From contig JAGMBO010000051.1 of NCBI GenBank assembly GCA_023129715.1, positions 1-64,000 on the forward strand: a DNA stretch of 64,000 nt, given 5' to 3'. Shown in pieces: positions 42,323-64,000 of this stretch. This DNA is from Candidatus Eiseniibacteriota bacterium. GTDB taxonomy: Bacteria; Eisenbacteria; RBG-16-71-46; CAIMUX01; WJJG01. Position numbers and translations under genes: made by a program. Numbering within the stretch: the stretch's first letter is position 1; the number at the start of each line of letters is the position of its first letter. Below the pieces are notes generated by a model that ran no database searches, was not told where the DNA came from, and saw only the letters and a program-made list of their open reading frames with translations.

Positions 42323-42348
42323 CTGTGGAGGCGGCGGGAATCGAACCC
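42323..42348 (-). repeat. att repeat 1: 3' end of ssrA (tmRNA)-like gene
   Basis: On the minus strand this reads as a T-arm plus acceptor 3' strand (GGTTCGATTCCCGCC followed by GCCTCCA). That is the usual 3' end of tmRNA, whose acceptor pairs with GGGGGCG. All 26 bases recur at 57217, and 23 of them at 45483. No upstream part of a tmRNA follows, so this is only the identity segment left by integration. A serine-type tRNA end is a weaker alternative. Confidence 0.75.
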
Positions 42349-42746
42349 AATTTGGGCAGAAACTCTAACCGGCAATTGGCGTGCGACTTCCAGCGTTACT
42401 GGGTTTGACTCCAGGAGTTACAGCTGCACAATGAGTGCTCCTGAGTCTACGTGAGTGAACAGGAATCGACCCCAGTCGTGGAGACATCTTGGAGACGACT
42501 GGGTCCACACTAGTCTCGCGCACTCGGCAAAGCACATTCATGAGGCAAGTTAGGTAGTCCGACGGTCCTGCAGAGAGCCCTACCAATACCCAGTCTACGA
42601 GCAGGAGGAGCCCCCGGATCGTAAGCCTCTGCTGATTGAGGACCGTACCTAAGGACGTCGAGTTCAATCGGCAATCCAGCAGGTGACACTCCAGCAGGGA
42701 ATCTCTAGACTGGTGTCAAGTGCGGTCTCAATCGGCCGGGGGCGTC

Positions 42747-45290
42747 ATGATCGGCGAGACCATTTCCCACTATCGGATCCTCAAGAAGATCGGCGAGGGA
42801 GGCATGGGCGAAGTCTATGCCGCCGAGGACACCGACCTTGAACGCAGGATCGCGCTCAAGGTGCTTCCGGCCTCCATTCGTGCTGACCCAGACATGCTGG
42901 ATCGGTTTCGCAAAGAAGCCAAGGCCATCGCAGCCTTAGACCACCCAAACATCGTGACGATCCACTCCGTGGAGGAATCTGACGGTGTGTGTTTCTTCAC
43001 CATGGAACTCCTGGAGGGCAACACCCTGGGCGAGTGGATTCCATCCAGCGGCTTGCCACTCGAGGAGTTCTTCGAGCTGGCCATTCCCTTGGTTGACGCC
43101 GTGCGTGCTGCTCATGAGCGCGGCGTGACGCATCGCGATCTGAAGCCTGGAAACATCATGGTGACGCGCGATGGGCGAGTGAAGGTGCTCGATTTCGGGC
43201 TGGCGAAGACCGTCGCGCCAAGCGCCATGATCGATGCCCCGCATGCACCCACTGAATTCCTGACCGAACCCGGGATCATCGCGGGGACGGTCCCTTACAT
43301 GTCTCCCGAGCAACTCCAAGGCAAGCCCCTTGATTCGCGGTCCGACATATTCTCGTTGGGGATCATCCTCTTTGAAATGGCAACGAGCCGGCGACCATTC
43401 CGCGCGGGATCACCGGCGGAAACCGTGTCATCGATCCTTCGGGATGTGCCGGACGCGGTTCGCGATCTCAGATCCGAGCTTGCCCCCCAGCTCGGCAGAA
43501 TCATTGATCGCTGTCTGGAAAAGGATCCGAAGGGCCGCTTTCAGACCGCGCACGATCTTGGATGCGCCCTCGAGGATCTGCGCGATGAAACGGCGAAGGG
43601 ATCTCGCCCGGGGACGGCCATGTCCTCGCGCAGCGTAGCGCGAACGGCCGGTCGGCAGATGATCGTGGTCCTGCCTTTCGAGAACCTGGGTGAGCCGGAA
43701 GACAGATACTTGGCAGATGGAATCAGCGAGGAGATCACGAGTCGACTCGCAGCGATCAGTGGACTCGGCGTGATCTCGCGGACGAGCGCCTTTCAGTACG
43801 AGACAAAGGGCAAGACGGTCAAAGAGATCGGGAGAGGACTCGGGGTCGACTTCCTCCTGGAGGGAACGGTCCGCTGGGATCGACAAGATGGCGGCCTGAT
43901 TCGAGTTCGTATTACGCCACAGCTCATCCGTGTGGCCGATGACATCCACCTTTGGTCCGACCGATACGATCGCGTGCTGGAGGACGTCTTCGCCGTCCAA
44001 ACGGAAATCGCCAAGGAGGTCATCGAGAGACTCGGAGCCACTATCCTCGAGTCCGAGAAGGAAGGTTTGCAGGCGAAACCGACCGAGAACATGGTTGCCT
44101 ATCAAGCCTATGTTCGGGGTCGGGAGTGGTTGAACAGGGCGGACCTAGCCGCCGAGCAATACAAGCAGGCCGTGCTGATGCTAGAGCAGGCCGTGGGGTT
44201 GGATTCATCTTTCGCCCTGGCTTATGTAGATCTCGCTGAGGCCCACCTATGCCTGTATTTCTATGGTTTTGATCGCTCTGACGCTCGGTTGCGCGAGGCC
44301 AAGGAGGCGGTGGATCGCGCCCTGGCGCTCCAACCCGACCTCCCAGCGGCCCATCTCGTTCTGGGCTATTACCACTACCGAGGTCATCTAGACTACGACC
44401 GCGCACTGAAGGAGTTCTCCGTGGCCTCCCAGGGTCTGCCGAATGACCCTACGTTGCTCGCCAATGTCGCGTACATATGGCGTCGCCAGGGACTCATGGA
44501 GCAGGCTCAGGTGAATCTCGAACAGGCAGCCGAGCTGAGCCCGCAGGATTTCCAACTCCTGTGTCAGCTCGGCATGACGTACACGGACATGCGGAGGTTC
44601 TCTGAGGCCATTGAGCGGTTTGAACGATCGATCTCCGTCCAGCCGGATCAGCAGCCTGCCTACCTCTATGAAGCGGCGGCCCACTGGGGCGCCGGCAATG
44701 CGGCTGCGGCGCGATCGACTCTGGAGCGGGTGCCCGACCGACAGACACCCTCTCTCGTCTGGTTCTGGTACATGCAGGAAATGATAGAACGAAACTACCA
44801 GGAGGCAGTGGCCAGACTATCGGAGCATCCTCGAAAGATCATAGAGCTGCAGTACTGGTTCCACCCCAAGGATCTCCTGGCCGGGATTGCCTATCGGCAC
44901 ATGGACGAGCTGGAGCGTGCCCGGCGACACTTCGAGCGGGCGCTGCCCTTGATGGAGAGGGCCGCCGCAGAGCACCCGGACGATCCACGGGTCCGCAGCT
45001 CCTACGGCCGAACGCTGGCCGAGCTCGGCCGCAAGGAAGCGGCAATCCGGGAAGCGAAAGAGGCTAGCGAGATCTGTCCCGTTTCCCGGGATGCAATCAT
45101 GGGTCCAAACTGGATTGTGGAGCTTGCGAGGTCTTATGTAGCCATCGGCGAATCCGAGGCTGCCCTAGATCAAATCGAATATGTGCTCTCAATCCCATGC
45201 TGGCTTTCCGTGCCATTTCTCAAGCTAGATCCAGACTGGGATCCACTCCGCGGACACCCGCGCTACGAGCGCATTATTGCGTCGTCCTGA
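42747..45290 (+). CDS. Ser/Thr protein kinase with TolB-like and TPR domains
   Basis: The start at 42747 follows a GGGGG stretch and gives 847 residues. Residues 8-275 are a Hanks-type kinase: glycine loop G-E-G-G-M-G-E-V, A-L-K-V, H-R-D-L-K-P-G-N, D-F-G-L-A and S-P-E-Q. Residues about 310-430 are a TolB/FlgO-like domain (V-V-L-P-F-E-N-L-G, then L-L-E-G-T-V-R, then I-H-L-W-S-D-R-Y-D-R). The rest is about eight TPR units. No membrane segment is seen, so it is probably cytosolic and scaffolds a signalling complex. This architecture is common in metagenomic phyla related to this one. It is the only gene between att repeats 1 and 2. Confidence 0.88.
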   Translation: MIGETISHYRILKKIGEGGMGEVYAAEDTDLERRIALKVLPASIRADPDMLDRFRKEAKAIAALDHPNIVTIHSVEESDGVCFFTMELLEGNTLGEWIPSSGLPLEEFFELAIPLVDAVRAAHERGVTHRDLKPGNIMVTRDGRVKVLDFGLAKTVAPSAMIDAPHAPTEFLTEPGIIAGTVPYMSPEQLQGKPLDSRSDIFSLGIILFEMATSRRPFRAGSPAETVSSILRDVPDAVRDLRSELAPQLGRIIDRCLEKDPKGRFQTAHDLGCALEDLRDETAKGSRPGTAMSSRSVARTAGRQMIVVLPFENLGEPEDRYLADGISEEITSRLAAISGLGVISRTSAFQYETKGKTVKEIGRGLGVDFLLEGTVRWDRQDGGLIRVRITPQLIRVADDIHLWSDRYDRVLEDVFAVQTEIAKEVIERLGATILESEKEGLQAKPTENMVAYQAYVRGREWLNRADLAAEQYKQAVLMLEQAVGLDSSFALAYVDLAEAHLCLYFYGFDRSDARLREAKEAVDRALALQPDLPAAHLVLGYYHYRGHLDYDRALKEFSVASQGLPNDPTLLANVAYIWRRQGLMEQAQVNLEQAAELSPQDFQLLCQLGMTYTDMRRFSEAIERFERSISVQPDQQPAYLYEAAAHWGAGNAAAARSTLERVPDRQTPSLVWFWYMQEMIERNYQEAVARLSEHPRKIIELQYWFHPKDLLAGIAYRHMDELERARRHFERALPLMERAAAEHPDDPRVRSSYGRTLAELGRKEAAIREAKEASEICPVSRDAIMGPNWIVELARSYVAIGESEAALDQIEYVLSIPCWLSVPFLKLDPDWDPLRGHPRYERIIASS

Positions 45291-45482
45291 GATCATCAAG
45301 TCTCAACTCAGACGGCCGGAGTCCGCGCCCCGATGAGCCGTGCGGCCGGTGGTTCTTGTGGTCCAGCCTAGAAGGAGGCGGCGATGGAGCTTCTGGAACA
45401 CTCAGGGGCCCGCAGCCAACGAGGCAGCATTGGCATCGGCAAAGAGGTACTTCCCCAACTCATTGAGGAGTAATCGGCTAAC

Positions 45483-45505
45483 CTGTGGAGGCGGCGGGAA
45501 TCGAA
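45483..45505 (-). repeat. att repeat 2: 3' end of ssrA-like gene
   Basis: Twenty-three bases are identical to the repeats at 42323 and 57217 and then diverge (AATCTG instead of AACCC). The flank to its right is unlike the right flanks of repeats 1 and 3. The 45291-45482 stretch before it has no gene. Confidence 0.7.
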
Positions 45506-45692
45506 TCTGCAACCTACAAGAAAACAAGGGGTTACAGAACCAGAACACTTCCGGTACAGGTCCCGAACAGAAACGGACAGAAGTCGACACCGGGCCCGAA
45601 GATACCCCCCCCGACTCTGCGCAAACACTAACAGAATCCGGACAGAAGCGACGCTCTCTCGAACACCAACGGTGTGCCGAATGCGTGCCAGG

Positions 45693-45813
45693 CAATCTCC
45701 TGCCTGCTGACGTCCCGCCGGCCGTCGCTTCCGCCCTCCGCCACTGGCGCGATCTTCCCCGCCATATCCGTTCTGCCGTCGAGACCCTGCTGACGGGCGA
45801 CACGCCGGAATAG
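45693..45813 (+). pseudogene. Fragment duplicated beside the recombinase: integrase-tail and L-P-R-H-I-R peptide
   Basis: The frame through att repeat 2 contains C-A-E-C-V-P, found in the tail of the recombinase near 57130, then P-P-A-V-A-S-A-L-R-H-W and L-P-R-H-I-R-S-A-V-E-T-L-L-T-G-D. The second part recurs at 55455-55560 with roughly 75% base identity. It looks like a leftover end of an older integrated element. Confidence 0.5.
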
Positions 45814-46243
45814 GCGTCACACTGTCGGCGATCCAAGGACCGATGAGATCGGGCCCTGATCGACAGTGAACTCCTCGCGGCGAGCCGGACAGCCATGTCG
45901 CCCACGAGCGAGTCCAGTTCAAACCTCGACGAGATGCACAGGTGGGGGATTCTGACGGTTGGCTGCGCAAGGGTCGCAGATGATCGGAAGTCGCCCCGAG
46001 CGCGGACCACACGCCACTGTGGCCGGGCGACGACGGGCACCGTCGTCTTCAGCCTAGGGCGGTGTCCGCTGCGACCACGGGTTGACGGTCTTGGCGGCGC
46101 GGAGTGCGGCGTGATAGCCGTTGCCGGTCGGATGCGAGGCGAGTGCAGCGAGCACCGCGAGAAGCATCAGGAGAACGGGAAGCGGCAAGGGAGGCAAGTG
46201 AGTGTTCGCAAGGCACCTCCCGGAGGAGGAGTTGGGCAAGGGG
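45814..46243. other. Intergenic region, nothing recognised
   Basis: The 430 bases lie between the fragment after att repeat 2 and the stop of the first kinase-FGE gene. A minus-strand frame (about 46075-46190) encodes a hydrophobic stretch (L-L-M-L-L-A-V-L-A-A-L-A), too short and too poorly started to call. Confidence 0.35.
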
Positions 46244-49200
46244 TCACCCCGCCGTCCTCGCCAAGCGCACACCGACCAAGTGGGAGCAGACGCCCGGCTT
46301 GTGGGCTCGGCGATTCGCCGAGCGACAGTCGCTGTGGAGGCGGTAATAGCACCCGCCGCGCAGTACCCGCTGTGAGCCCGTCGTTGGTCCCAGTGGATCC
46401 TGCCTTGGTGAAGAAGCATAGTAATCGTTGTCAAACCAGTCCTGGCACCATTCACTGACATTGCCGTGCATGTCATACAAACCCCACGCATTCGGTCGCT
46501 TCTTGCCAACTGCATGCGTATCAGATCCTGAGTTGCCTTTGAACCAAGCGTACTCACCAAGAACTGATCGATCCTCCCCGAACGAGAAGGGCGTCTGACT
46601 GCCAGCGCGGCATGCGTACTCCCACTCTGCTTCCGTGGGTAGACGGTAGATCCTGCGTCCCGCGGCTTGATTCAGTCTTCCGATGAACTCCACGCAATCC
46701 GTCCACGAGACCCACTCGGCGGGAAGTCCTCCGCCGGCAAAGGACGAGGGGCTGGTGCCCATTACTCCTTGCCACTGGCTCTGGGTGATCTCGTACTTGC
46801 CTAACCAAAACCCCTCTGTGATTTCGACTTCGTGTACTGGGCTCTCATCCGTGTCACGCTCTCGCTCGTCTCTAGGCGATCCCATCCCAAACCGCCCCGC
46901 CGGGATCCACACGAACTCAATCCTGACACCAGGGGAGAGCTCCACCGCTGCCTGCTGGCCGGCTTGCGCTCCCTCGGGGAGCAGGTGGTGCCGTGCTGCC
47001 CGAACGCCTCTCTCCAGTTCGATGATTCGCTCCTCTGTTGGATCCAATTCCTTCAGGTCTTCCAGAACTTCCTCGGCTTGCGCTAAGGATGCTATCGTAC
47101 CCCGCCCGATATCTGATTCAACTCCTGCAATCAAGTATGCCACGCGCTGCTGTCTTCTCCTCTCACCCTCTCTTCTCCTCTCCAACTCATCGCGCATTGT
47201 GGCGATCCGCTTCCCGAATCCCGCGACCTCGGCTCCCATCGCATCCAGTCGCATCAGTTCCACGAACGCTTCCTCAGCGGCCTGAAGAGATGGCTCCGTA
47301 CCCTCGGCAATGCCCGCACGAATCGAGCCGGTCAGGGAAGTGATCGTGGCGATGCGCTGGGCCCGCTTCTGGATCTCCCCCACCCTGGTCTCCACCCCCA
47401 CCGTCTCCTCGGAACGAACTGCCACGATCTTCCGCAGCATGGCCACCGCATCATCGAAGCGGCCGGCCTGTTCTAGCCTCGCGCTCTCCCCCCGCAGTCT
47501 CTCGATCTCCCGATCCGCCAGCTCCTTCAGGGCTGCGGTGCGCACCGCGGCCTCGGTTGCCGGCGTGCCCCCGAGTCTTCTCGCCTCCGAGTATCGCCTA
47601 CGAGCAGCATCCCACTGTTCGACCTGAAGGAGACTGTCGCCCTGCGAAAGCAGGAGTCCTCCAATCGACTCCGCTGTCGACCGCCTAGCTTCCTCCGAAA
47701 CGCCCAACCCATGGGCCTGATTCAGCTCCCGGTGGGCCAGCTCCGAGTCCCCGACGGCAAGCGCCTGCTTAGCCAGAGACAGATGCCCCCGATTGTCCTG
47801 GATCGTGAAGACCACCGCGACGATGGCGGCGACAGCTGCAACCGCACCCACAGTGATCCCGACGCGGATTGCGTGCCGCCGGGCGGCCGCGCGGTGCGCG
47901 GCGTGCAGTCGTCCCTGGAACTCGTGCGCTCGCGTCTCTTGGGGCCAGATCCCAAGAACCTCCTTGATCCGGCCTTGCGCCTTCGAGAGATCTCCCTGGG
48001 CAAGGGCTTGCTCCGCCCGTTCCAGTGCGTGCACGATCCTCTGTTGCTCGTTCTTTGCCTCCTCTTGGAGTTGTACGGCTCGTACATTTTCCGGACACTC
48101 GGCCACGAGCTCATCCAGCAGGCTCAGCGTCTCTGTGTAGCGGTGTTCGCGCCGAAGGGTGCGGGCCTTATTCATCCTCTCCCGGAACTGCTCGTGCCTT
48201 GATTCGGCCTCCTCGCGAAGTCGGGGCAGTTCCTCGTCCTCAGGTAGGTATTCCAGCAGCTTCCCGGCAAGGCGGGCGGTATCCTTGTACTGGTGCTTCT
48301 CCCAGGCCGCATTCAGCTCCCGTTTCAGCCCCTCGACTTCTTGCGTCCGTCGCTCCAACTCGGCCTGTTTCGCGGGAATGATCTCATCGCGGGGATGCTC
48401 CCGGCGGACCTGCGAGAGCAACTCGCCAGCTTCCCGGAGGTAGCCCCTTCCGATCCTCGCCTCGATGTCCGAAATCGTCCGCTTCAGATCGGCCAGCCGC
48501 TCACTCGCTTCGCCCTTGAGTTGCTCGGCGCGGGCACGGGTTGTCTGAACCAGGGATCCTTCTTCCCACTCCTCCTCCCCGGCTAGCTCGATAATCTCTC
48601 CCGCCTGGGAAAGCACTGCCGCCCAGTGCTTGCCCGCAAGGGACTCCTCGAGTTGCCCTGCCGTGCGTGCTACTCCCCACTCCGTCCGGCGGCGGGGGAA
48701 CGTGCGGAGATGCTCTAGAAGGTCCTCATCCTGCGGAGCCAATTCCAAGGCAGATCGGATGTGCTTTTCAGCCGCATCGAAGGCACCTTCATCGGAGCTC
48801 CTCTGCATCTGCTGCTTGAGCTCCTCCACGCACTTGGCCTTCTCTCGCGCCTCCCGGATCAGTCCCTGCGCCTTGCTGTCGTCTGCTCGCCGCTTGAGTG
48901 CTAGCCGGGCCTCTTTCTCCGATCGACCATACTGCTTCTGCTGCAGCAGCTTCTCCGCATGGGTGATGTGCTCCTGGTAGGCGGCCTCGTCTTCGATGTT
49001 GGTGCCGCAGTATCGACAGAACTCGAGTCCTATCCGTAACTCCTTGCCGCAGAAAGGATTGGGACAGATCCGGAATAGACCCGAGCCGCATCCCTCGCAA
49101 AACCGAGCATCTTCTGTGTTCAGGAGCCCGCATTCGGAGCACTTGCCGGGCTCCGGTTCTGCCTGCTCGCGATCCGGCTTCCCGGCCCTCGGCTGCGTGA

Positions 49201-50107
49201 CTCCTTCCTCTATGCCCCGCTGGAACTCGTCCACCGAAAACCAACGGTCGGCGGGGGTCGGCTTCAGCGCCTTCATCACCGCCGAACGAATGCCCGCCGG
49301 GAGTGCATCCGGGTCGACAGGATCCGGCACCTCGCCCGTCAGAATATGATAGACCGTCTTGCCCAGCGCATAGATGTCACTGCGGTGATCCGCTCGCTTC
49401 GCGTCCCGCCGCTGCTCCGGTGGCATGTAGGCTAGCGTCCCTAGGCCATAGCCTGTCTTCGAGAGCTCCGACTCCGTCGCCATCCGGGCAAGTCCGAAGT
49501 CGACGATCTTGACCAATCCTTCATGGGTCATCAGGATGTTCGAGGGCTTCAGATCCCGGTGGATCACGCCATGACGGTGGGCGTAACTGACGGCTTGGAA
49601 GACCTGCCGGAATAGGGGATAGGCCCGTTCGAGATCCCAGGCGCCCCCCTCTTCCAAGATCTGCCCTAGATCCTTACCCTCGTTCCACTCCATCACGATG
49701 AAGTGGCGGCCCTGCTCCTCCCCCACATCCAGCACTTGGACGATCGACTGGTGATTCAGCCCTGCGACGGTCTCCGCCTCCCGGAGGAAGCGCTCGATCC
49801 CTTCCTGGCTTCCCTCAAGCTGTTCGCTCAGGATCTTGATCGCGACCGTGCGGGTGCGAAGCTTCGCGTCCCGTGCGCGAAAGACAACTCCCATACCGCC
49901 TCGGCCGCGTTCTTCCTCGAGCTGCCAGCGGCCGGCGAGGAGTTGGCCAGGAGGAAGAGGACTCTCGAGGGTGGGGGGAACATAGACCGTCGAGCCACCG
50001 GGAGGCTTGCCACGCGTCTGCCCCGGGATCTCGGAGATGCGCGTGCCGCACTTCCCGCAGTACTCCCAGCCTTCGGGGATTTCAGTGCGGCATTTGGGAC
50101 AGCGCAT
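46244..50107 (-). CDS. Zinc-ribbon/Ser-Thr kinase/coiled-coil/membrane/FGE-fold fusion protein
   Basis: This is a 1287-residue fusion. Residues 1-21 are a zinc ribbon (C-P-K-C ... C-G-K-C). About 58-315 is a Hanks kinase (G-R-G-G-M-G-V-V, H-R-D-L-K-P-S-N, D-F-G-L-A). About 335-400 holds two more ribbons (C-S-E-C ... C-E-G-C; C-R-Y-C). About 400-740 is a helical/TPR-like stalk. About 760-785 is one membrane segment (I-T-V-G-A-V-A-A-V-A-A-I-V-A-V-V-F). A second coiled-coil follows, and about 1075-1287 is an FGE/SUMF1 fold (F-V-W-I-P-A-G-R-F-G-M-G-S, R-L-P-T-E-A-E-W-E-Y-A-C-R). The paired active-site Cys of true formylglycine enzymes are not both aligned, so that domain may bind rather than catalyse. 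The kinase should be inside and the FGE domain outside. The ribosome site is GGAGC. Confidence 0.88.
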   Translation of the reverse strand: MRCPKCRTEIPEGWEYCGKCGTRISEIPGQTRGKPPGGSTVYVPPTLESPLPPGQLLAGRWQLEEERGRGGMGVVFRARDAKLRTRTVAIKILSEQLEGSQEGIERFLREAETVAGLNHQSIVQVLDVGEEQGRHFIVMEWNEGKDLGQILEEGGAWDLERAYPLFRQVFQAVSYAHRHGVIHRDLKPSNILMTHEGLVKIVDFGLARMATESELSKTGYGLGTLAYMPPEQRRDAKRADHRSDIYALGKTVYHILTGEVPDPVDPDALPAGIRSAVMKALKPTPADRWFSVDEFQRGIEEGVTQPRAGKPDREQAEPEPGKCSECGLLNTEDARFCEGCGSGLFRICPNPFCGKELRIGLEFCRYCGTNIEDEAAYQEHITHAEKLLQQKQYGRSEKEARLALKRRADDSKAQGLIREAREKAKCVEELKQQMQRSSDEGAFDAAEKHIRSALELAPQDEDLLEHLRTFPRRRTEWGVARTAGQLEESLAGKHWAAVLSQAGEIIELAGEEEWEEGSLVQTTRARAEQLKGEASERLADLKRTISDIEARIGRGYLREAGELLSQVRREHPRDEIIPAKQAELERRTQEVEGLKRELNAAWEKHQYKDTARLAGKLLEYLPEDEELPRLREEAESRHEQFRERMNKARTLRREHRYTETLSLLDELVAECPENVRAVQLQEEAKNEQQRIVHALERAEQALAQGDLSKAQGRIKEVLGIWPQETRAHEFQGRLHAAHRAAARRHAIRVGITVGAVAAVAAIVAVVFTIQDNRGHLSLAKQALAVGDSELAHRELNQAHGLGVSEEARRSTAESIGGLLLSQGDSLLQVEQWDAARRRYSEARRLGGTPATEAAVRTAALKELADREIERLRGESARLEQAGRFDDAVAMLRKIVAVRSEETVGVETRVGEIQKRAQRIATITSLTGSIRAGIAEGTEPSLQAAEEAFVELMRLDAMGAEVAGFGKRIATMRDELERRREGERRRQQRVAYLIAGVESDIGRGTIASLAQAEEVLEDLKELDPTEERIIELERGVRAARHHLLPEGAQAGQQAAVELSPGVRIEFVWIPAGRFGMGSPRDERERDTDESPVHEVEITEGFWLGKYEITQSQWQGVMGTSPSSFAGGGLPAEWVSWTDCVEFIGRLNQAAGRRIYRLPTEAEWEYACRAGSQTPFSFGEDRSVLGEYAWFKGNSGSDTHAVGKKRPNAWGLYDMHGNVSEWCQDWFDNDYYASSPRQDPLGPTTGSQRVLRGGCYYRLHSDCRSANRRAHKPGVCSHLVGVRLARTAG

Positions 50108-50347
50108 TGGTCAGCTCCAGGAGTTCCCATCAACTGCAATCGATGCGGCTGACATTGGGGCATTCTGCATGGCCATGCTTCCACCCCACCTCACAACTCC
50201 GTGTCCGGCCCACTCGGTCGGCGATACGCCTAGCTCATCGCTCCGCGCATGGCCTGCGGTCCGCGCTCACACCTGCCTCCCGAGCAGGCCCTCCGCGGAC
50301 CTCGCGGTCCGCAAGAGCAGATCGCAAGATGGCAAGAGTGCAAAGGG

Positions 50348-52429
50348 TCATGAAGCCGTCCTCGCCAAGCGCAAACCGCCCGTGCCCTTCGTGGCGCCGA
50401 TCCGACGCGCGGACCGGATGTGGCGGGCTTCGTTGTAATAGCACCCGCCTCGCATCACGCGGCCCGAACCCGTGCCTGGCCCCCGCGGGTCCTGGCCGGG
50501 TGAAACGGCATAGTAGTCGCTGCCATACCAGTCCTGGCACCATTCCCAGACGTTCCCGATCATGTCGAAAAGTCCCCAGGCGTTCGCCTTGAACTCCCCC
50601 ACTGGCGCGGTCTCCGCGTAGCCGTCATTGCACTCGTGGATCATCGAGCGGGAGTGCCTCCCTCTCTCCCATGCCAGATCGGCCAAATTAGCATAGCGGC
50701 AGGCGTTCTCCAGTCCATCGCCCCAGTATCGCGCTGTCCTAGTACCTGCCCGGCAGGCGTATTCCCACTCGGCCTCCGTCGGCAGGCGGTAGATCTCCTC
50801 TCCTGCTGACTGGTTCAACTTCTTAGTGAATGCCTGGCAGTCTTCCCAGGAGGCCTTGACGACAAGACGCCGCGTGTCCCCTTTGAAGCTCGAAGGATCG
50901 TCCTCCACGACGACAAGACGCCGCGTGTCCCCTTTGAAGCTCGAAGGATTGCCCTCCATCACTGCCTGCCATTGGGCCTGAGTTACCTCGTACTTGCCCA
51001 ACCAGAATCCTTGTGTGATTTCGACATCGTGAACGGGTCCCTCATCGTTGTAACGCTCCGGCTCACCATTCGGCGACCCCATCCGGAATCGACCCGCCGG
51101 GATCCAGACAAAGTCCATCTCCACTACAGGATAGATGGTAAAGGTGTGGGATTCCCCGGCGGATGGAACGCCAGTCGGCGGCGCACTACCCGACAGAGAG
51201 CGTGACACCCCCTGGTCGGCGGTTGCGGCAGGCTCGCCCTCGGACACCGCCCCGGGCCGATCCGCTCCCTCAGCAGGCGCCGTCTCTGCCGGCGGGCGTT
51301 CCGTTTCCATCGGATCGGGCCCGTGCTCGCGGGGCGATACTTGCCCGGTTGGGGCATTCCACTGATTGCCACCTCTGCCCCACAGTGATGGGAGGTAGAC
51401 CACAGCCAGCACGATCCCAACGACGGCAGTCAGCGTCACGGCCATCGCCCATGCCCACCGCCGCCGCCGCGTTGGTTGCGGCCTCGGTCTCCGGTCGGGC
51501 TCCCGATCAACGGGCTTGCTCACCGCCCCTTCCAGCGCCTCCCGGAACTCGCGGATACTGAAGTACCGATCTTCGGGTTTCGTACGCAGTGCGCGGAGTA
51601 GGATATCCCGCATCTCATTCGGCAGGAGCTGCAGATCCACCGTGCCCGGGTGTTCGCCGGTCAGCATCTGATAGAAGATCTTGGCGAGCGCGAAGATGTC
51701 GGCACGATGGTCCGCGTGCTTCGCATCGCCAACTTGCTCGGGGGCCATGTAGGCCAGCGTGCCCACCGACTCCCCGGACAACGTGAGATCTTCTGTCGTC
51801 ACGATTCGGGCCAGCCCGAAGTCGGCGACCTTCGGTACGCCGTCTGCCGTGAGTAGAATGTTGGCGGGTTTCAGATCCCGGTGGACGACCCCCTTACGGT
51901 GAGCGTAGTCCAGCGCCTCGAGAATCGGACGGATGAGGGCGAGGGTCTCCCCGGGACTCAGCTTGCCCCGCTGTTTGAGTAACGACCGAAGATCCTGGCC
52001 CTCAATCCACTCCATCGCGATGAAGGGACCTTGGCCATCTTCACCGAACTGGTAGATCTGAACAATGTGAGGGTGGGCCAGGGCCGCAATCGCACGTGCC
52101 TCCGCCAGGAAGCGCTGGATCCCCGCCTGGCTCCCCAGTAGTCGGGGAGACAGCCGCTTCAAGGCGACTTCGCGGCCCAGCAGGCCGTCGCGGGCGTGGT
52201 AGACGACGCCCATGCCCCCGTGGCCGACTTCTTTTACGATCTCGAACTGGCTGGCAGCGGAACTGAGCTGGCCGTCACCCGGACCGATGGTGACATCAGG
52301 ATCGTCCGAAGACCCGCCCCCAGCGTGTGTGGCCTCAGACGCTGCCGACGGACCCAGGGCAGCCCCGCACCGCGAGCAGAAGCCCGCGCTTGGATCAATC
52401 GGATGGCCGCATTCCTGACAAGTCGTCAT
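50348..52429 (-). CDS. Zinc-ribbon/Ser-Thr kinase/membrane/FGE-fold fusion protein
   Basis: This 693-residue protein is a compact paralogue of its neighbour. It has an N-terminal zinc ribbon (C-Q-E-C ... C-S-R-C, residues 4-21) and a Hanks kinase (about 62-310; G-H-G-G-M-G-V-V, H-R-D-L-K-P-A-N, D-F-G-L-A). An Arg-rich stop-transfer and one membrane helix follow (about 328-350), then a Pro/Glu linker. The FGE/SUMF1 fold (about 435-693) has F-V-W-I-P-A-G-R-F-R-M-G-S, N-A-W-G-L-F-D-M-I-G-N-V-W-E-W and a final R-G-G-C-Y-Y. Only one Cys lies in the catalytic zone. A 51-base tandem duplication adds 17 residues within the FGE fold. The start is three bases from an AGGAG. It lies 240 bases after the start of the preceding kinase gene on the same strand. 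Confidence 0.88.
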   Translation of the reverse strand: MTTCQECGHPIDPSAGFCSRCGAALGPSAASEATHAGGGSSDDPDVTIGPGDGQLSSAASQFEIVKEVGHGGMGVVYHARDGLLGREVALKRLSPRLLGSQAGIQRFLAEARAIAALAHPHIVQIYQFGEDGQGPFIAMEWIEGQDLRSLLKQRGKLSPGETLALIRPILEALDYAHRKGVVHRDLKPANILLTADGVPKVADFGLARIVTTEDLTLSGESVGTLAYMAPEQVGDAKHADHRADIFALAKIFYQMLTGEHPGTVDLQLLPNEMRDILLRALRTKPEDRYFSIREFREALEGAVSKPVDREPDRRPRPQPTRRRRWAWAMAVTLTAVVGIVLAVVYLPSLWGRGGNQWNAPTGQVSPREHGPDPMETERPPAETAPAEGADRPGAVSEGEPAATADQGVSRSLSGSAPPTGVPSAGESHTFTIYPVVEMDFVWIPAGRFRMGSPNGEPERYNDEGPVHDVEITQGFWLGKYEVTQAQWQAVMEGNPSSFKGDTRRLVVVEDDPSSFKGDTRRLVVKASWEDCQAFTKKLNQSAGEEIYRLPTEAEWEYACRAGTRTARYWGDGLENACRYANLADLAWERGRHSRSMIHECNDGYAETAPVGEFKANAWGLFDMIGNVWEWCQDWYGSDYYAVSPGQDPRGPGTGSGRVMRGGCYYNEARHIRSARRIGATKGTGGLRLARTAS
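50858..50959. repeat. 51-bp in-frame tandem duplication in the FGE-fold domain
   Basis: Two adjacent 51-base units, starting GACGACAAGACGCCGCGTGT at 50858 and again at 50909, are nearly identical and encode P-S-S-F-K-G-D-T-R-R-L-V-V twice. The other two kinase-FGE proteins have a single copy at the matching place (S-P-S-S-F-A-G-G and D-P-D-F-E-K-D-T-R). The near identity indicates a recent event. Confidence 0.85.
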
Positions 52430-52597
52430 AGTCTCCTACGGCCCTGGAAGGACATCAGCAAATGCCATTCCCCGAGCACATCCTGCGCCCCCCGCGGCCA
52501 GCCGGCCCGGTCGGCGTTGCTCCTCCCTCCCGAGCGGGTCAGGTGGGTCGTCGGGTCCGCAAAGAAGCAGACCGGAAGATAGTAGGATCGCAAGGCG

Positions 52598-54634
52598 TCA
52601 TTGAGTCGTCCTCACCAAGCGAAAGCCGTTACACGGATTGTCTTCGCCGTCGGGACTCCAGCAACTGCGGGAAGCGCAGCGGCATTCCCTTTGGGGGAGC
52701 CACGCGTCACTGCCACGCACTACGCGATAAGTGCCCGACTTTGGTCCCAACGGGTCCTGCCGGGGTGACCTGGCGTAGTAATTCGCTCCAAACCAATCCT
52801 GACACCACTCATTCACGTTTCCATGCATATCATACAGGCCCCAAGCATTCGGCCGTTTCTGTCCGACTGGTTGCGCATCTCCACCAGCGGTGTCATCGTA
52901 CCAAGCGTAGTTGCGCAGATCTGACTCGTCATCTCCGAAGCAGTATGCCGCCCGACTCCCCGCACGACAGGCATACTCCCATTCCGCTTCGGTGGGCAGG
53001 CGGTATACCTCTTGCCCAATTGCATTGTTCAGTTCCTCTGCAAATGCTTGACACGCTTCCCAGGAAACGTCGTCAACAGGGCACCTCGTATCTTTCTCGA
53101 AGTCGGGATCGCTGTCGAACACGCCCTGCCATTGGGCACGAGTAACCTGATACTTCCCCAACCAGAAGCCCCGCGTGATCTCGACCTCGTGAACAGGTGA
53201 TTCTTTCTCATACTCCTCCGGCTCGACGCTTGAGGAGCCCGTATGCAGCTTCCACTGGTCCTTTGGGGCCCCCATGGGGAAACTCCCCGGCGGAATCCAA
53301 ACGAAGCCCATCTGCACACCCGGGAAGATCTCTATCGTCCGCTCCTCGCCCGCGCGTTCCCCCTTCCCCATCTCGGGCTCTCGTGCTTCCACATCCTCTG
53401 TCTCAACTGCCGCGACTGTAGCCTCGTCTAGCTCCTTCCCCAGGCACTCAACCAACTCCAGGGCGCTCTCGGGCCGTTCCGAAGGCCTCCTCGACAGACA
53501 CGCCATCGCGAGTCGCACCAAACGCTCAGGACCAGGGGGCGGTTGGATTTCGACCGCCAGGTCCTTCTTCTTCTCAATGATCTCCCTTGCATTGCCCGAA
53601 TAGGGCAATTCTCCATCTAGGATCTCATACAGGATCATTCCCAATCCGTAGATGTCTGCCGCCGGCCCCACATCCTTCCACCGGGCGGCCCTGATCTGTT
53701 CTGGGGCCATGTAGGCCGGGGTGCCGATCCCGTCTGCAGCCAAGCCAGCGCGAACGTCTCGCGAGCCTCCAATCGCTCGGGCCAGACCGAAGTCTCCCAC
53801 TTTCACTCGCCACCGCGTGCCGCGGGGCTCTTCTCCGCCATCACCTTCTCTGGTTGCTGCCTCGCTGTCATGAATGTGTTCCAAGAGCAGCACGTTCTCC
53901 GGCTTGATATCCAGGTGCACGAGGCCGGCATCGTGGATCGCGGCCACACCTCGGCAAGCCTGACAGAACAGCTCCAGTCCCTCCCCCTGGCGCCCTCCCA
54001 CGCCGTCTCGCCTCTCATCCAGCCACTCACGCAGGCTCTGCTTGGCAAGCTCCATTGGAAGGAGAAGCAAGCTTGCCTCGCCGCGCTGGCAGATCCGGGG
54101 CTCGGAGACCGTCAGGATGTGCTCTCGATCACGGATTCCCCGCTGGGCACGATACTCATCGGCCACCATTCGATGCAGGGCGTCTGTGTCTCCGCGAGCT
54201 GGGATGACCTTGATCGCAGTCGACTCTCTCAAGATCCTATCCTCGGCACGGTAGACTTCACCAAAGCCGCCCCGCCCCAAGAACTCCCGGATCTCGAACT
54301 GGTCCGCGAGAGTGTCTCCCGAAGACAGCATTCCGGCGGCAGTCGGGTCCTTTGGAGTAGGCCTCGCCACTTCAGTTGGGGAGAGCGCCTCTGCGGGACC
54401 GGCTGTATATCCCGGGTCAACTGGCGACACCGTCTCCGAACGCAAGTCCTGCCCGGAGCCCGTCTGCCCCGAGTCCCCGGCCTCGGCGGCCGGCGCCCCG
54501 ACGGCGAAGCCGTCGGGGAAGATCAGAAACATGGCATTGCACGACGCACACCGGCAGCGCGTGCCCCCCGGAGTGATCAGATGCTCAGAGATCTCCGGCC
54601 CGGGCCTATCGCAAGCGGGGCACCTAACGCGCAT
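52598..54634 (-). CDS. Zinc-finger/kinase-like/FGE-fold fusion protein (HLD kinase)
   Basis: The ATG at 54634 follows GAGGAAGAG; a longer frame upstream adds only a low-complexity Arg-rich stretch. The 678-residue product starts with an MJ0042-like zinc finger (C-P-A-C ... C-R-C-A-S-C, residues 4-31). A linker follows, then a kinase (about 112-395; G-R-G-G-F-G-E-V, A-I-K-V) whose catalytic loop is H-L-D-I-K-P-E-N rather than H-R-D, with intact D-F-G-L-A. An FGE/SUMF1 fold ends the protein (about 440-678; F-V-W-I-P-P-G-S-F-P-M-G-A). Unlike its two neighbours it shows no membrane helix, so all of it may be cytosolic. The C-terminal R-G-G motif is R-G-S-D-A-W. Confidence 0.85.
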   Translation of the reverse strand: MRVRCPACDRPGPEISEHLITPGGTRCRCASCNAMFLIFPDGFAVGAPAAEAGDSGQTGSGQDLRSETVSPVDPGYTAGPAEALSPTEVARPTPKDPTAAGMLSSGDTLADQFEIREFLGRGGFGEVYRAEDRILRESTAIKVIPARGDTDALHRMVADEYRAQRGIRDREHILTVSEPRICQRGEASLLLLPMELAKQSLREWLDERRDGVGGRQGEGLELFCQACRGVAAIHDAGLVHLDIKPENVLLLEHIHDSEAATREGDGGEEPRGTRWRVKVGDFGLARAIGGSRDVRAGLAADGIGTPAYMAPEQIRAARWKDVGPAADIYGLGMILYEILDGELPYSGNAREIIEKKKDLAVEIQPPPGPERLVRLAMACLSRRPSERPESALELVECLGKELDEATVAAVETEDVEAREPEMGKGERAGEERTIEIFPGVQMGFVWIPPGSFPMGAPKDQWKLHTGSSSVEPEEYEKESPVHEVEITRGFWLGKYQVTRAQWQGVFDSDPDFEKDTRCPVDDVSWEACQAFAEELNNAIGQEVYRLPTEAEWEYACRAGSRAAYCFGDDESDLRNYAWYDDTAGGDAQPVGQKRPNAWGLYDMHGNVNEWCQDWFGANYYARSPRQDPLGPKSGTYRVVRGSDAWLPQRECRCASRSCWSPDGEDNPCNGFRLVRTTQ

Positions 54635-55454
54635 GGATCTCTTCCTCTTCACGCATTCTTGCAGGATGCTACCCAATCCGGTCGCTTGCGGGCGTGGGCT
54701 CAGCCTCGAATCTCCCCGCGCGGACCGGCACGTGCGGCTCCCGGCTTGGCCCGTAAAAGATCTCACCCGTCTCCAGGGCTGTCGCTTCGCCATCCGCTGA
54801 CTTCAGGCACAGGGTGAGCTGTCAGTGAGCAGGATACCAGCACTGTGGCCTACTGTGCCACCCTGCCCGGCGCCTGTGCAGCCGAAGGGCTCCACCCGGG
54901 CGACTCTGGGGCACCCAGGGTGAATCAGAAAGCGGTTCGCACCTGATCCCTGTTACCTCGCCGAGACGAACAGGAGTCCATCATCTTCCTATGCTGGAAG
55001 ATACGCCCTGGCGACATCCGTGACTTGGCCTGGAGGGGCGCGATGCAGCCCGCAGATGAGATTGCGGGACTGATGGCTGACAGGGCAATGGAATGGGAGG
55101 ATAGTCGGCGCGACCGCGCGGTTCTCTCGGTTGCCGACCGCCAGCACTGGAGGCCATTAGGCCCGTCCCTGTCGCCCTGGCCGGGCGAGGATGAGCGTGG
55201 TACGAAGAGCGTGATTAGATCACGCGAGTATTGCATCCCCTGGCGTCACACGCCTGGATTGGACGGCTTCCAAACCGCACGCTCAGGAACCGGAAGAGAC
55301 AAGTCACTCGCCTCTGAATCAAGATGCCGCGACAGCGGCCACCCCGTCATCCCTCCCTGGCGACTTGCCCAGGTCAATCCGCTAACGAGATCAGTCGATG
55401 AAGTCGTCGGGATTGATGGGCCCGGTTTGAGGCAAGTCTGACGCTGTGGTGATC
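54635..55454. other. Intergenic region with no supported gene
   Basis: The 820 bases lie between the start of the third kinase-FGE gene and the duplicated fragment before the excisionase. A plus-strand open frame at 55025-55441 has no family match, no clear ribosome site and an erratic composition. No promoter is convincing. Confidence 0.35.
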
Positions 55455-55560
55455 GCCTGCCTCCTGACCTCCCGCCAGCCGTCGTGTCGGCCCTTCGCAA
55501 CTGGCGGAAGCTTCCCCGTCATATCCGCACGGCTGTGGAAGCTCTGCTGACCGGCGACGC
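55455..55560 (+). pseudogene. Second copy of the L-P-R-H-I-R fragment
   Basis: It encodes P-P-D-L-P-P-A-V-V-S-A-L-R-N-W then L-P-R-H-I-R-T-A-V-E-A-L-L-T-G-D, parallel to 45693-45813. It runs directly into the truncated excisionase, so an old element end seems to be fused to a newer element here. No ssrA-like repeat accompanies this copy. Confidence 0.5.
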
Positions 55561-55568
55561 CCGGGTGC

Positions 55569-55757
55569 ATGCTGGGATGCCATCAGGTGACTGTGAAGCG
55601 GGCCGTGAAGCGCGGGGAACTGCCGCCGCCCGTGCGAGTGATGGGCAAACCGACCTGGACAGTGGGGCTAATTCGCACGCACATGGAGAAACGTCTCGAG
55701 GACGTAGCAAGAGACGCCCTGCGAACAGAGCAACGAATCCGTCAGCTCGACCCTTGA
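55569..55757 (+). CDS. Excisionase-like helix-turn-helix protein (N-terminally short)
   Basis: The 62 residues (M-L-G-C-H-Q-V-T-V-K-R-A-V-K-R-G-E-L-P-P-P) match a MerR/excisionase-type winged helix, including the wing V-M-G-K-P-T-W-T. Usual relatives have about 15 more residues before this point, so the N-terminus may have been lost where the upstream fragment joins, or this may be a minimal version. It would direct recombination and regulate the recombinase. It is 31 bases before the next gene, within the control region of the small RHH protein. Confidence 0.6.
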   Translation: MLGCHQVTVKRAVKRGELPPPVRVMGKPTWTVGLIRTHMEKRLEDVARDALRTEQRIRQLDP

Positions 55758-55758
55758 C

Positions 55759-55775
55759 TTTCGCAGATTGCGAAA
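55759..55775. promoter_or_regulatory. Operator-like palindrome upstream of the RHH gene
   Basis: TTTCGCA-GAT-TGCGAAA is a perfect seven-base inverted repeat. A TTGACT (-35-like) overlaps its left edge at 55754, and the RHH start lies 13 bases to its right. Ribbon-helix-helix proteins often repress their own promoters at such dyads, so this is a candidate autoregulatory site for the RHH-recombinase pair. Confidence 0.45.
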
Positions 55776-55788
55776 ATAGGATGTGAGC

Positions 55789-55989
55789 ATGGCAAGACGA
55801 ACCAGAGCGCAACTCGCTGCGGACAAGCTTCGCACGGGGCGTCCTCCGAAGCATCCATCGGAGAGGCATAGCGAGCAGGTCATGGTGTACTTGACGAGAG
55901 CCGAGCGGCGACGCTTGGGGGCTTTGGCCCGCAAGAGAGGTGTTTCGCTCGCATCGCTCATCATGTCGCCCTGGCGCAAGGAGCAATGA
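55789..55989 (+). CDS. Small ribbon-helix-helix-like DNA-binding protein
   Basis: The 66-residue basic protein has an Arg/Lys-rich N-terminus, then a beta-strand and two helices (V-M-V-Y-L-T-R-A-E-R-R-R-L-G-A-L-A-R-K-R-G-V-S-L-A-S-L-I). This is the CopG/RHH pattern, in which a strand dimer enters the DNA groove. Its stop lies one base before the recombinase start, so the two genes are probably co-translated. A role in recombinase control or relaxosome-like binding is inferred. Confidence 0.6.
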   Translation: MARRTRAQLAADKLRTGRPPKHPSERHSEQVMVYLTRAERRRLGALARKRGVSLASLIMSPWRKEQ

Positions 55990-55990
55990 G

Positions 55991-57262
55991 ATGGCTGGCG
56001 TGCGCAAGAAACCTGGTGGCAACGGGAAGTTTCAGGCGTGGTTCAAGGATCACTCGGGACGCCGGAAGTTCTTCTGGGGGACGCGCAACCGGAGCGAGAC
56101 CCTGCGCACCGCCCGGCGCCTGGAAGACGAGCATCGTCAGGTCGCCCTCGGCTATCGTCCCGCCCCCACGGAGGCGGACAAGGCGAAGCGACAGCAATTC
56201 GATGACGTCCGAGAGGGATATCTGAACTGGGGAGCAATTCAGGGAGGTCGCGGGGGACGCCCCTGGAGCGCAGTCCATGCACGAATGCGCCGGAACTTCC
56301 TGGCGTACTGGAAGGAGTGGCTCCACCTAGAGACGATGGCGGATCTTCAGGGTTGCCTGCCGCGTGTAGAAGAGGCGGTGCAGGATCTCCTCGCCCGTGG
56401 CAAGAGCACCAAGACGGCATGGAGCTATGCGGACGGACTTCAAGCGTTCTGTAACTGGTGCGTCCGCCGAGGCTATTTGAGCGAGAACCCTGTTGTGCGC
56501 CTGCCAAAGCTGGACACGTCACCCCGGATCAAGCGTCGGGCAATGACATCCGAGGAGATCCACCGATTGCTCAGCGCATGCCCGACCCACCGCCGTCTGC
56601 TCTACGAGACGGCCTTTTTGTCGGGCCTCCGTGCGGGGGAACTCAGAGCGCTGGAAATCCAGCATCTCGACGCTGGTGCGGGTGGAGTCTGGCTTGATGC
56701 AGCGTGGACCAAGAACCGACAACCCGGATTCCAGCCGCTCTCTGCCGAATTGGTGCGGCGCCTACAGGCCTTCGCGGCTGAGGGGGAAGCCGCGAAGCTC
56801 TACTCCAGATTCACTCGGAACAGCGACCGGGAGCCGCCGTGCAGCCCGTTGCTTTACGTTCCAACCCACATGGCGAGGGCCATGGACGAAGACCTAGGCA
56901 ACGCCGGGATTCCAAAATGGACGCCAGAAGGCAAGTTGGATTTCCATGCCGCGCGCACTGCATACTCCACGATGCTCGTCGAGTCCGGGGCAACTTTCAA
57001 GGAAGCCCAGGTTATGGCCCGCCACTCCACGCCGACCGTGTTCGCAAACACGTATGCTCGCACCCGGCGTGAGCGGTTGGCAGAGGTGGCGGAGCGGGTC
57101 GGAAAGATTGTTCTAGGCGACGAGAATTGTGCCGAATGCGTGCCACACGGAGCTACTGGGGCCGAAGGCGAAACCGGCAACATCCCATCTACAGAGAAGT
57201 TGCCGGTCAAGACCATCTGTGGAGGCGGCGGGAATCGAACCCGCTACGCGCGTTTCTCATAA
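55991..57262 (+). CDS. int: Tyrosine recombinase (integrase)
   Basis: The ATG at 55991 (AAGGAG upstream) gives 423 residues. There is a short basic N-terminal arm domain, a SAM-like core-binding domain (about 75-190), and the catalytic domain with R214 (S-G-L-R-A-G-E-L), H319-x-x-R322 (F-H-A-A-R), H345 (A-R-H-S) and nucleophile Y355 (N-T-Y-A-R). All catalytic residues are present, so the enzyme may be active. The C-terminal tail runs through att repeat 3: its G-G-G-G-N-R-T is the translation of the ssrA-like segment. This is typical when an integrase abuts its own attachment site. Confidence 0.93.
   Translation: MAGVRKKPGGNGKFQAWFKDHSGRRKFFWGTRNRSETLRTARRLEDEHRQVALGYRPAPTEADKAKRQQFDDVREGYLNWGAIQGGRGGRPWSAVHARMRRNFLAYWKEWLHLETMADLQGCLPRVEEAVQDLLARGKSTKTAWSYADGLQAFCNWCVRRGYLSENPVVRLPKLDTSPRIKRRAMTSEEIHRLLSACPTHRRLLYETAFLSGLRAGELRALEIQHLDAGAGGVWLDAAWTKNRQPGFQPLSAELVRRLQAFAAEGEAAKLYSRFTRNSDREPPCSPLLYVPTHMARAMDEDLGNAGIPKWTPEGKLDFHAARTAYSTMLVESGATFKEAQVMARHSTPTVFANTYARTRRERLAEVAERVGKIVLGDENCAECVPHGATGAEGETGNIPSTEKLPVKTICGGGGNRTRYARFS
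57217..57242 (-). repeat. att repeat 3: 3' end of ssrA-like gene, inside the recombinase 3' end
   Basis: All 26 bases match repeat 1 at 42323. On the minus strand they read as T-arm plus acceptor. The region to the right shares weaker similarity with the right flank of repeat 1 (aligned TAACC and TGGCG blocks), as expected if both are left ends of related elements. The rest of a tmRNA is not to the right, so another element is inserted here. Confidence 0.78.
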
Positions 57263-57281
57263 CCCATTGATGGCGCGTAGC
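57243..57281. repeat. Inverted repeat next to att repeat 3
   Basis: GCTACGCGC (57243-57251) and GCGCGTAGC (57273-57281) form a perfect nine-base inverted repeat with a 21-base spacer, starting exactly where the ssrA-like segment ends. It could be a recombinase arm- or core-binding pair or an RNA hairpin. The gap to 57508 shows no gene. Confidence 0.5.
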
Positions 57282-57508
57282 TTTCGCGCAAGTTCTTTGG
57301 GATCGAAGCTGCTACGGATCGCGTTTCCTTCCTCACCGTTCCTCCCCATTTCCCACCATTCCGCCAAGCGCGGGGAGACGGCGGGGAGACGACGGGGCCA
57401 ATTCGGGTCTCTCGGCTCCTGTGGCTCCCATGTCATTGCCGACGCAGGCGCGGCGATTCCGCTTCAGAGCGTGGCGGCCCTCCAGGCGATCCACGGGGGG
57501 GCTGCCGT

Positions 57509-59726: not shown

Positions 59727-60101
59727 ATGTCAGAGGCACAGAGCGAACACAGAGGCCCCGTGCCTGAGCCGCCCAAGCACCTGAGAGAGCGATCGCGGGC
59801 CCTTTGGAGGGCAATGGTCGGGCGGCAGGTGCGAAGCCCCCAGCGGCTCGCTCTCTTCCAGACCGCCCTCGAGGCGCTCGACCGAGCCGATCAAGCCCGC
59901 GAGGAAGTGGCAGCAGGCCACATGACCACCACCACGCCAGCGACGGGTGCCGTTCACCTGCACCCGTTGCTTCGGGTCGAGCGTGAGGGAAGAACTCTCT
60001 TCGCCAAGCTGTGGGGCGATTTATCTCTTCGCTGGGATCCCGACGTTGACCCTGACCCCGCGCCGGCGATCCGGCCTTGGAATCCCGAGCCCCGGGACTA
60101 G
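59727..60101 (+). CDS. terS: P27-family small terminase subunit
   Basis: The 124-residue protein has the P27 pattern: P-P-K-H-L-R-E-R-S-R-A-L-W-R-A-M-V at the start, a helical middle (A-L-E-A-L-D-R-A-D-Q-A-R-E-E), then G-A-V-H-L-H-P-L-L-R-V-E-R and a final L-W-G-D-L-S-L-R-W-D-P. Small terminases recognise phage DNA for packaging and hand it to the large ATPase. No large terminase follows. A 23-residue frame at 59648-59719 precedes it but is not called. Confidence 0.8.
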   Translation: MSEAQSEHRGPVPEPPKHLRERSRALWRAMVGRQVRSPQRLALFQTALEALDRADQAREEVAAGHMTTTTPATGAVHLHPLLRVEREGRTLFAKLWGDLSLRWDPDVDPDPAPAIRPWNPEPRD

Positions 60102-63674: not shown

Positions 63675-64000
63675 GGTCTCGGCTCCTTTCCAGAGCATCC
63701 CGCCCAAGAGCTGTTCGGGAGGCATGGATCGTTCCCTGAAGGCTTCGCTCCCGCGTCTGGCCGCAGCGGTCCTCTGGATCTCCTTTCGGCCCGTTGCTCG
63801 GGTTTCGGGAGGATTGGTCCTCTAGCCGGGAATCCGAGGCCCTAGGATGCTCACAGAGAGCCGGTCAGCTCCTTGCGGGGGACAAGCTATGACGTACCCG
63901 CCTAACCTCGCTCAGCCAAGCATTCGCCCTGCCAGGTCACCTAACCATCTGCCTATGTGACGGTTAGCACCAGTAAACGAAAATGAAAGAAAATGCTTGC
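63675..64000. other. Right edge of window, no gene seen
   Basis: Besides the ribosome site of the preceding minus-strand gene, a weak stem (CTAACC at 63940 with GGTTAG at 63961) is seen. The last bases turn AT-rich (AAACGAAAATGAAAGAAAATGC), which may be a promoter region of a gene beyond the edge. No fourth ssrA-like repeat is present. Confidence 0.35.

Follow-up and report, generated by a model that had tools for sequence, protein, structure and literature searches.

Tandem repeats of an ssrA 3' end delimit three probably stacked units in an Eisenbacteria genome, one of them integrase-less with a recurrent left-end module

Three units appear to be stacked at the 3' end of one ssrA (tmRNA) gene in the genome of a Candidatus Eiseniibacteriota bacterium. 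Two of them, elements A and B, carry tyrosine integrases of their own (IntA and IntB), and the third, unit C, is read as an integrase-less cassette that would be moved in trans by an IntA-like integrase; a probability of about 0.8 is assigned to this reading as a whole. The arrangement itself is not new, since tandem ssrA islands are known from Dehalococcoides; stacking at ssrA is thus a known phenomenon, and what is new is the left-end module of unit C and its recurrence on integrase-less units at ssrA and tRNA-Met genes of other genomes.

The window, i.e., the whole stretch of DNA that was analysed, comprises 64 kb, and the contig from which it was taken (C134, 66,197 nt) shares its coordinates. 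The sequence CTGTGGAGGCGGCGGGAATCGAA is present at 42323, 45483 and 57217 as exact 23-nt repeats in one orientation, with an identity of 26 nt between copies 1 and 3 and of 23 nt for copy 2. Only 0.05 core matches (up to three mismatches) are expected in the dinucleotide-shuffled window, none of 100 such shuffles reached three matches, and the 4.83-Mb genome holds exactly four copies at the same tolerance, all beside ssrA. No tRNA, tmRNA or Rfam gene was found inside the window. On the extended contig, an intact ssrA was identified at 65782-66128 on the minus strand, 1.8 kb beyond the window edge (ARAGORN tag ADYEPALAAA; Infernal 182.8 bits), and its 3' end is itself the fourth identical core, from 65780. 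The original prediction, made from the window alone, had reported the three repeats, derived them from a tmRNA 3' end, seen no intact ssrA, and placed the gene to the right of position 64000 on the minus strand together with another att junction and perhaps a second integrase; all of this was confirmed, the integrase being IntA, and the outcome that it had named as refuting, an intact gene elsewhere with no att copy nearby, did not occur. The contig stops 69 nt past the ssrA 5' end, so that sequence further upstream is unreadable.

The four cores delimit three segments (Table 1): A (57217-65780, 8.56 kb), B (45483-57217, 11.73 kb) and C (42323-45483, 3.16 kb). The repeat breaks off at an identical T-arm position in every copy, and the sequences to the right of the cores differ among C, B and A, giving three left ends. 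GC content showed no clear separation of the segments, and a search for a conserved gene downstream of ssrA that could anchor the left flank of 42323 returned only FlgD-tail-type similarity. The locus has the general form of tandem tRNA/tmRNA islands, namely an intact ssrA with same-orientation direct repeats of its 3' end downstream. An integrase gene beside a core is found twice (IntA at the ssrA core and IntB across att copy 3), and unit C taken alone has none.

Table 1. Features of the three segments and their borders (contig coordinates)
Feature	Position	Strand	Remarks
att copy 1 (distal; left border of unit C)	42323..42348	+	26 nt = ssrA 3' end
C-type module: TAACC box, GAGTC-like repeats, terminal TGGAGAC pair (42479-42496)	42349..42498	+	96.5 bits
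Ser/Thr kinase-TPR protein, 856 aa, sole gene of unit C	42720..45290	+	Pkinase 8.4e-48, TPR
att copy 2 (C/B border)	45483..45505	+	core match
Element B left end, repeated ACAGAA / CGGACAGAAG motifs, candidate arm sites (putative function)	45566..45648	+	
18-nt repeat TGTGCCGAATGCGTGCCA near element B left end	45673..45690	+	exact second copy at 57128
Kinase-FGE protein, 1287 aa, element B	46244..50107	-	Pkinase, FGE-sulfatase
Kinase-FGE protein, 693 aa, element B	50348..52429	-	Pkinase, FGE-sulfatase
Kinase-FGE protein, 731 aa, element B	52598..54793	-	Pkinase, FGE-sulfatase
IntB tyrosine integrase, likely start 55994	55940..57262	+	PF00589 3.6e-12; phrog_1 2e-34
Second 18-nt repeat copy, inside intB 3' end, candidate P-arm site	57128..57145	+	
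att copy 3 (B/A border)	57217..57242	+	core match
Element A left end: TAACC box and GGGGAGAC pair (57373-57390), offset as in unit C	57243..57390	+	33.3 bits
535-aa ORF, element A	57509..59116	+	without family match
Terminase small subunit-like protein, element A	59727..60101	+	phrog_1496 1.6e-5
HK97-type major capsid protein, element A	60604..61881	+	Phage_capsid 5.7e-35; TIGR01554 2e-38
Excisionase-like HTH_17 protein, element A	64353-64631	+	
IntA tyrosine integrase, 374 aa	64635-65759	+	PF00589; ends ~20 nt short of ssrA core
Element A right-end GGGGAGAC pair	65717-65734		inside intA 3' end
att copy 4	from 65780		ssrA 3' end

Element A is flanked on both sides by GGGGAGAC/GGAGAC pairs. Only 0.02 chance matches to the pair pattern are expected in the window, where it was found solely at the left ends of unit C and element A. 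Element A encodes a capsid protein and a small-terminase-like protein, and the ORFs scanned include none for a large terminase, a portal or a tail protein; it is therefore probably satellite-like or a reduced prophage rather than a full one. No relatives of the capsid protein were found in viral contigs, and no close relative of IntA was present among all loci retrieved here. At 8.6 kb, the element resembles a capsid-encoding phage satellite in Eisenbacteria.

Element B contains three kinase-FGE genes and intB. The two copies of its 18-nt repeat lie ~190 nt to the right of the left core start and 89 nt to the left of the right core; the longest repeat in shuffled sequence is 12 nt. IntB is unrelated to IntA, and its reading frame passes through att copy 3, so that the C-terminus of the protein depends on sequence beyond the core. 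Relatives of IntB were identified in G006 (60%), where the gene abuts ssrA, and in G012 (51%), where it lies at the end of a contig that terminates in a core. The genome of the window also contains a partial IntB paralogue (L253, G000:C144), which spans a tRNA-Ser(TGA) gene. The middle kinase-FGE gene contains a 51-nt tandem duplication in its FGE domain (50858-50958, 96% identical). PADLOC matches to the kinases (PD-T4-6) were set aside as evidence of defence, as they are generic kinase matches.

Unit C comprises a single gene and no integrase. It has att cores on both sides and neither integration nor transfer genes, as CIMEs do. Its left end is formed by a module of ~175 nt that consists of the T-arm core, a TAACC box and a GGAGAC repeat pair at a fixed distance, and the TGGAGAC pair is located at the same distance from the core as the left pair of element A. 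A profile derived from 21 copies of other genomes, covering the 150 nt that follow the core and leaving the core out, matched the 66-kb contig only once, at 42353-42497 (E=3e-19). The original prediction had distinguished a phage-like right segment and a kinase-FGE segment with its own recombinase, both of which were recovered (the former with a terminase-small-like protein, an HK97 capsid and IntA), and had explained the whole by repeated insertion at one site. The stacking is supported, but not all three segments are autonomous: segment C is without a recombinase, and its left end is common to integrase-less units and resembles the att site of element A.

The comparison of empty sites in related genomes, which had also been proposed, revealed that most of the 59 genomes searched have a single core, at ssrA, and that stacking is present in G005 (same order; four cores) and G009 (two cores). 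The segments in G005 contain AbiEi/AbiEii and XPB-type helicases (8.0 kb) and, in two cases, an AAA/DUF4143 ATPase (1.5 kb each); that in G009 (8.1 kb) contains an HTH-M78 protein, a TOTE primase-helicase and an AAA ATPase. No recombinase was found in the segments of either genome. An empty and an occupied site could be compared directly in G002 (C264, L073) and a contig of G065 (C835, L215), which are identical over 248 nt up to the core end; after the core, G002 continues into ssrA and the G065 contig into a module. This pair places the insertion precisely at the core; it covers one C-type end, not those of A, B and C. Three further contigs, G012:C13, G012:C214 (L077/L078) and G062:C23 (L214), end exactly at the att core, indicating that the assembly graph branches there, and such branching may reflect mixed integrated and empty states.

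Unit C, the segments of G005 and G009 and a G003 contig (Candidatus Eisenbacteria) have left ends that align with each other. By using a pattern scan of ~85,000 species genomes followed by a sequence model, module matches were detected in MAGs labelled Krumholzibacteriia (~14 strong matches), Latescibacterota (one closed chromosome) and Deltaproteobacteria, and single module-bearing contigs were found in other bins of the scan too. Nearly all comparison sequences are MAG contigs, and bin labels are unreliable for short contigs (G064, G065). A spread to Planctomycetota was dropped, as the G065 contig, 248/248 identical to the Eisenbacteria relative up to the core, is probably mis-binned; the module contig of G064 (Acidobacteria), only 3.6 kb long, was not relied on. 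The module is 87% conserved between the Krumholzibacteriia and Latescibacterota copies. In most copies, the distance between the core start and the terminal GGAGAC-like pair is 153-156 nt (~154); in several, it is ~10 or 20 nt shorter, differences that approximate full turns of the helix and look like the loss of entire repeats. Phage records yielded no module, and in plasmids the only match spans 26 nt and covers the core; no published description of the conserved module was found in the open-access literature searched.

The target of the module is the tmRNA 3' end in most genomes, tRNA-Met in G012 and other tRNA-like T-arms in G009. In G012, the module adjoins two displaced tRNA-Met(CAT) 3' ends, an intact tRNA-Met ends the array, and the two stacked units measure 1.3 and 3.5 kb. 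As the module follows its target, the left half of the core belongs to the target and the right part to the element, as for T-arm integration. A simple ssrA array does not account for some modules in G059, G062 and G063 that are solo or have hybrid cores, nor for some of those in the Krumholzibacteriia MAG and the closed Latescibacterota chromosome that are without a second core. Solo copies without a second core are exemplified by L179 and L180 in G063, a closed chromosome. Two inverted copies with identical left flanks are ~22 kb apart on G062:C1 (L177/L178), one of them near an IS110-like transposase ORF. The Krumholzibacteriia MAG G059 yielded no complete ssrA; a truncated 3' end of the gene (~50 nt) lies next to a tRNA-Lys gene there (G059:C394, L170, 2635).

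Seventeen units (539-8089 nt, median 2482) have two bounding cores and a module at the start, one of the modules being weak. Neither of the recombinase families examined was detected within them: PF00589, surveyed in 17 genomes, had 0 matches in the 17 bounded units, and PF00239, surveyed in 11, had 0 matches in the bounded units of the genomes searched (G012 left out). Several bounded C-type units hold a single gene, and the right-hand (P) arm pair is absent from most integrase-less units. Their cargo includes DUF4143 ATPases, AbiE, TOTE helicase, TPR signalling proteins, a Fic C-terminal domain, gamma-glutamyltranspeptidase and FlgD-tail proteins. No integrase with exact C-type arm repeats was found adjoining a C-type unit, and a search of viral contigs via IntA and arm/core patterns revealed no C-type integrase; two arm/core-pattern matches in these contigs were chance occurrences in phage coding DNA. 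Integron integrases (TIGR02249 above cut-off) were identified in G000, G005, G063 and G065, the one in the genome of the window being G000:C8:253-1836 (L229). An integron integrase as the partner of C-type units was set aside. None was seen adjoining a module, and the tyrosine recombinases of G060 and G062 showed no apparent TIGR02249-type candidate. The attC consensus (RYYYAAC / GTTRRRY) was not seen by eye in the aligned modules.

According to the proposed mechanism, the T-arm and 3' end of ssrA would serve as the attachment site for several unrelated tyrosine integrases, and each insertion would have rebuilt ssrA and left the displaced 3' end at the far border. Judged from the distance to ssrA, the units may have been inserted in the order C, B, A, provided that each insertion used ssrA itself and not a distal copy. 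IntA would bind the paired GGAGAC arm repeats on either side of the core and recombine T-arm cores, and the IntB element is marked by the 18-nt repeat at both of its ends and by a gene that passes through the core. Element A would represent the self-sufficient form at the locus. Unit C consists of a core, an IntA-like P' arm (TAACC box, and GGAGAC pair at ~154 nt) and a single cargo gene; its movement most likely occurred in trans, by the IntA-like integrase of a resident element. Protein binding, insertion order, excision, transfer and trans mobility are predicted here from sequence. More tentatively, unit C could be a member of a widespread integron-like cassette system, whose small recombinase-free units (one or a few genes, a tRNA/tmRNA T-arm core and arm repeats on one side) would be arrayed at ssrA and tRNA genes by a trans-acting IntA-type integrase and exchanged between several phyla, which is possible but on balance doubtful.

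A serious rival, given nearly an even chance, takes unit C and the other integrase-less units for CIMEs, once-autonomous islands in which the integrase and the P arm were deleted and the att sites kept; the units would then be immobile or limited to movement in cis, through accretion with an adjacent element, and the stacking would be unchanged. Possible CIMEs are the published explanation for 15 ssrA-GIs without an integration module in the tandem islands of Dehalococcoides (PMC3146451), CIMEs are also described in ICE/IME tandems (PMC5704250), and the lack of a right-hand arm pair in most C-type units means that these could be decayed remnants. On the other hand, the detection of a recombinase in 0/17 bounded units, several of them single-gene, and the conservation of the P' module (87%) fit less easily, as independent decay each time would be less economical, though the spread of already decayed copies could mimic this pattern.

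The stacking itself could have arisen elsewhere, prior to transfer into this lineage, the three segments forming one composite island that arrived and moves as a block. The cores share one orientation and are near-identical, so that recombination between the outermost two could remove all 23 kb at once, and transfers of CIME-ICE tandems have been published (PMC5704250); nevertheless, separate elements are indicated by the three different left ends and by two integrases that are unrelated, and relatives differ, with IntB alone at ssrA in G006 and three integrase-less units in G005, which makes the composite origin unlikely. It is far less probable still that the repeats are duplicated tmRNA gene fragments or chance matches instead of att sites. 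Short tRNA-like fragments do occur in genomes, the truncated ssrA 3' fragment in G059 (C394) being one, but this reading has to contend with the identical T-arm stop, the integrases that end at two cores, the site pair that diverges after the core and the expectation of only 0.05 matches.

Stacked units of the kind preferred here have several known counterparts. In Dehalococcoides, tandem islands are located downstream of ssrA, with 20-bp repeats of the ssrA 3' end and insertion at the T-loop (PMC3146451); both systems share tandem units, ssrA 3'-end repeats and some units without an integration module. The Dehalococcoides module consists of the serine recombinases DsiA/DsiB (PMC3146451), whereas two unrelated tyrosine integrases (PF00589) are found here and PF00239 had no match on contig C134; further differences lie in the cargo, which is phage-like or consists of kinase genes, and in the attachment module conserved between phyla. 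As in CIMEs and ICE-IME accretion (PMC5704250), an att-flanked integrase-less unit stands in tandem with integrase-bearing elements at a tRNA or tmRNA 3' end; in contrast to these systems, no ICE/IME transfer genes were seen here, and many units, some single-gene, share one conserved end. The fGI-2 of Methylophilaceae, an additive flexible genomic island at a tRNA gene (PMC10872708), likewise shows a repeated tRNA 3' end (20 nt of tRNA-Lys) with variable genes in between; the portion of that report considered here describes no arm-repeat module, which is defined in the present units, also at tRNA-Met. Integron cassettes also form arrays of small units of one or a few genes with a recombination site and no recombinase of their own, but the site here is a tRNA/tmRNA core with arm repeats instead of attC, and gene orientation is mixed.

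Recombinase-free units at tmRNA and tRNA genes thus have a ~175-nt module in common, which suggests a way in which single genes (those for DUF4143 ATPases, AbiE, TOTE-type helicase and kinase-TPR proteins) could be gathered and exchanged with no need for an integrase on each unit. The fixed arm spacing and the presence of the integrase-bearing element A at the same locus make the idea of trans mobility directly testable, and the module may be used as a search tool for element borders in poorly known phyla. Elsewhere in the window, a 1734-aa protein of HYDIN/ASH-type Ig repeats (PF22544, eight stretches) is encoded at 29456-34660.
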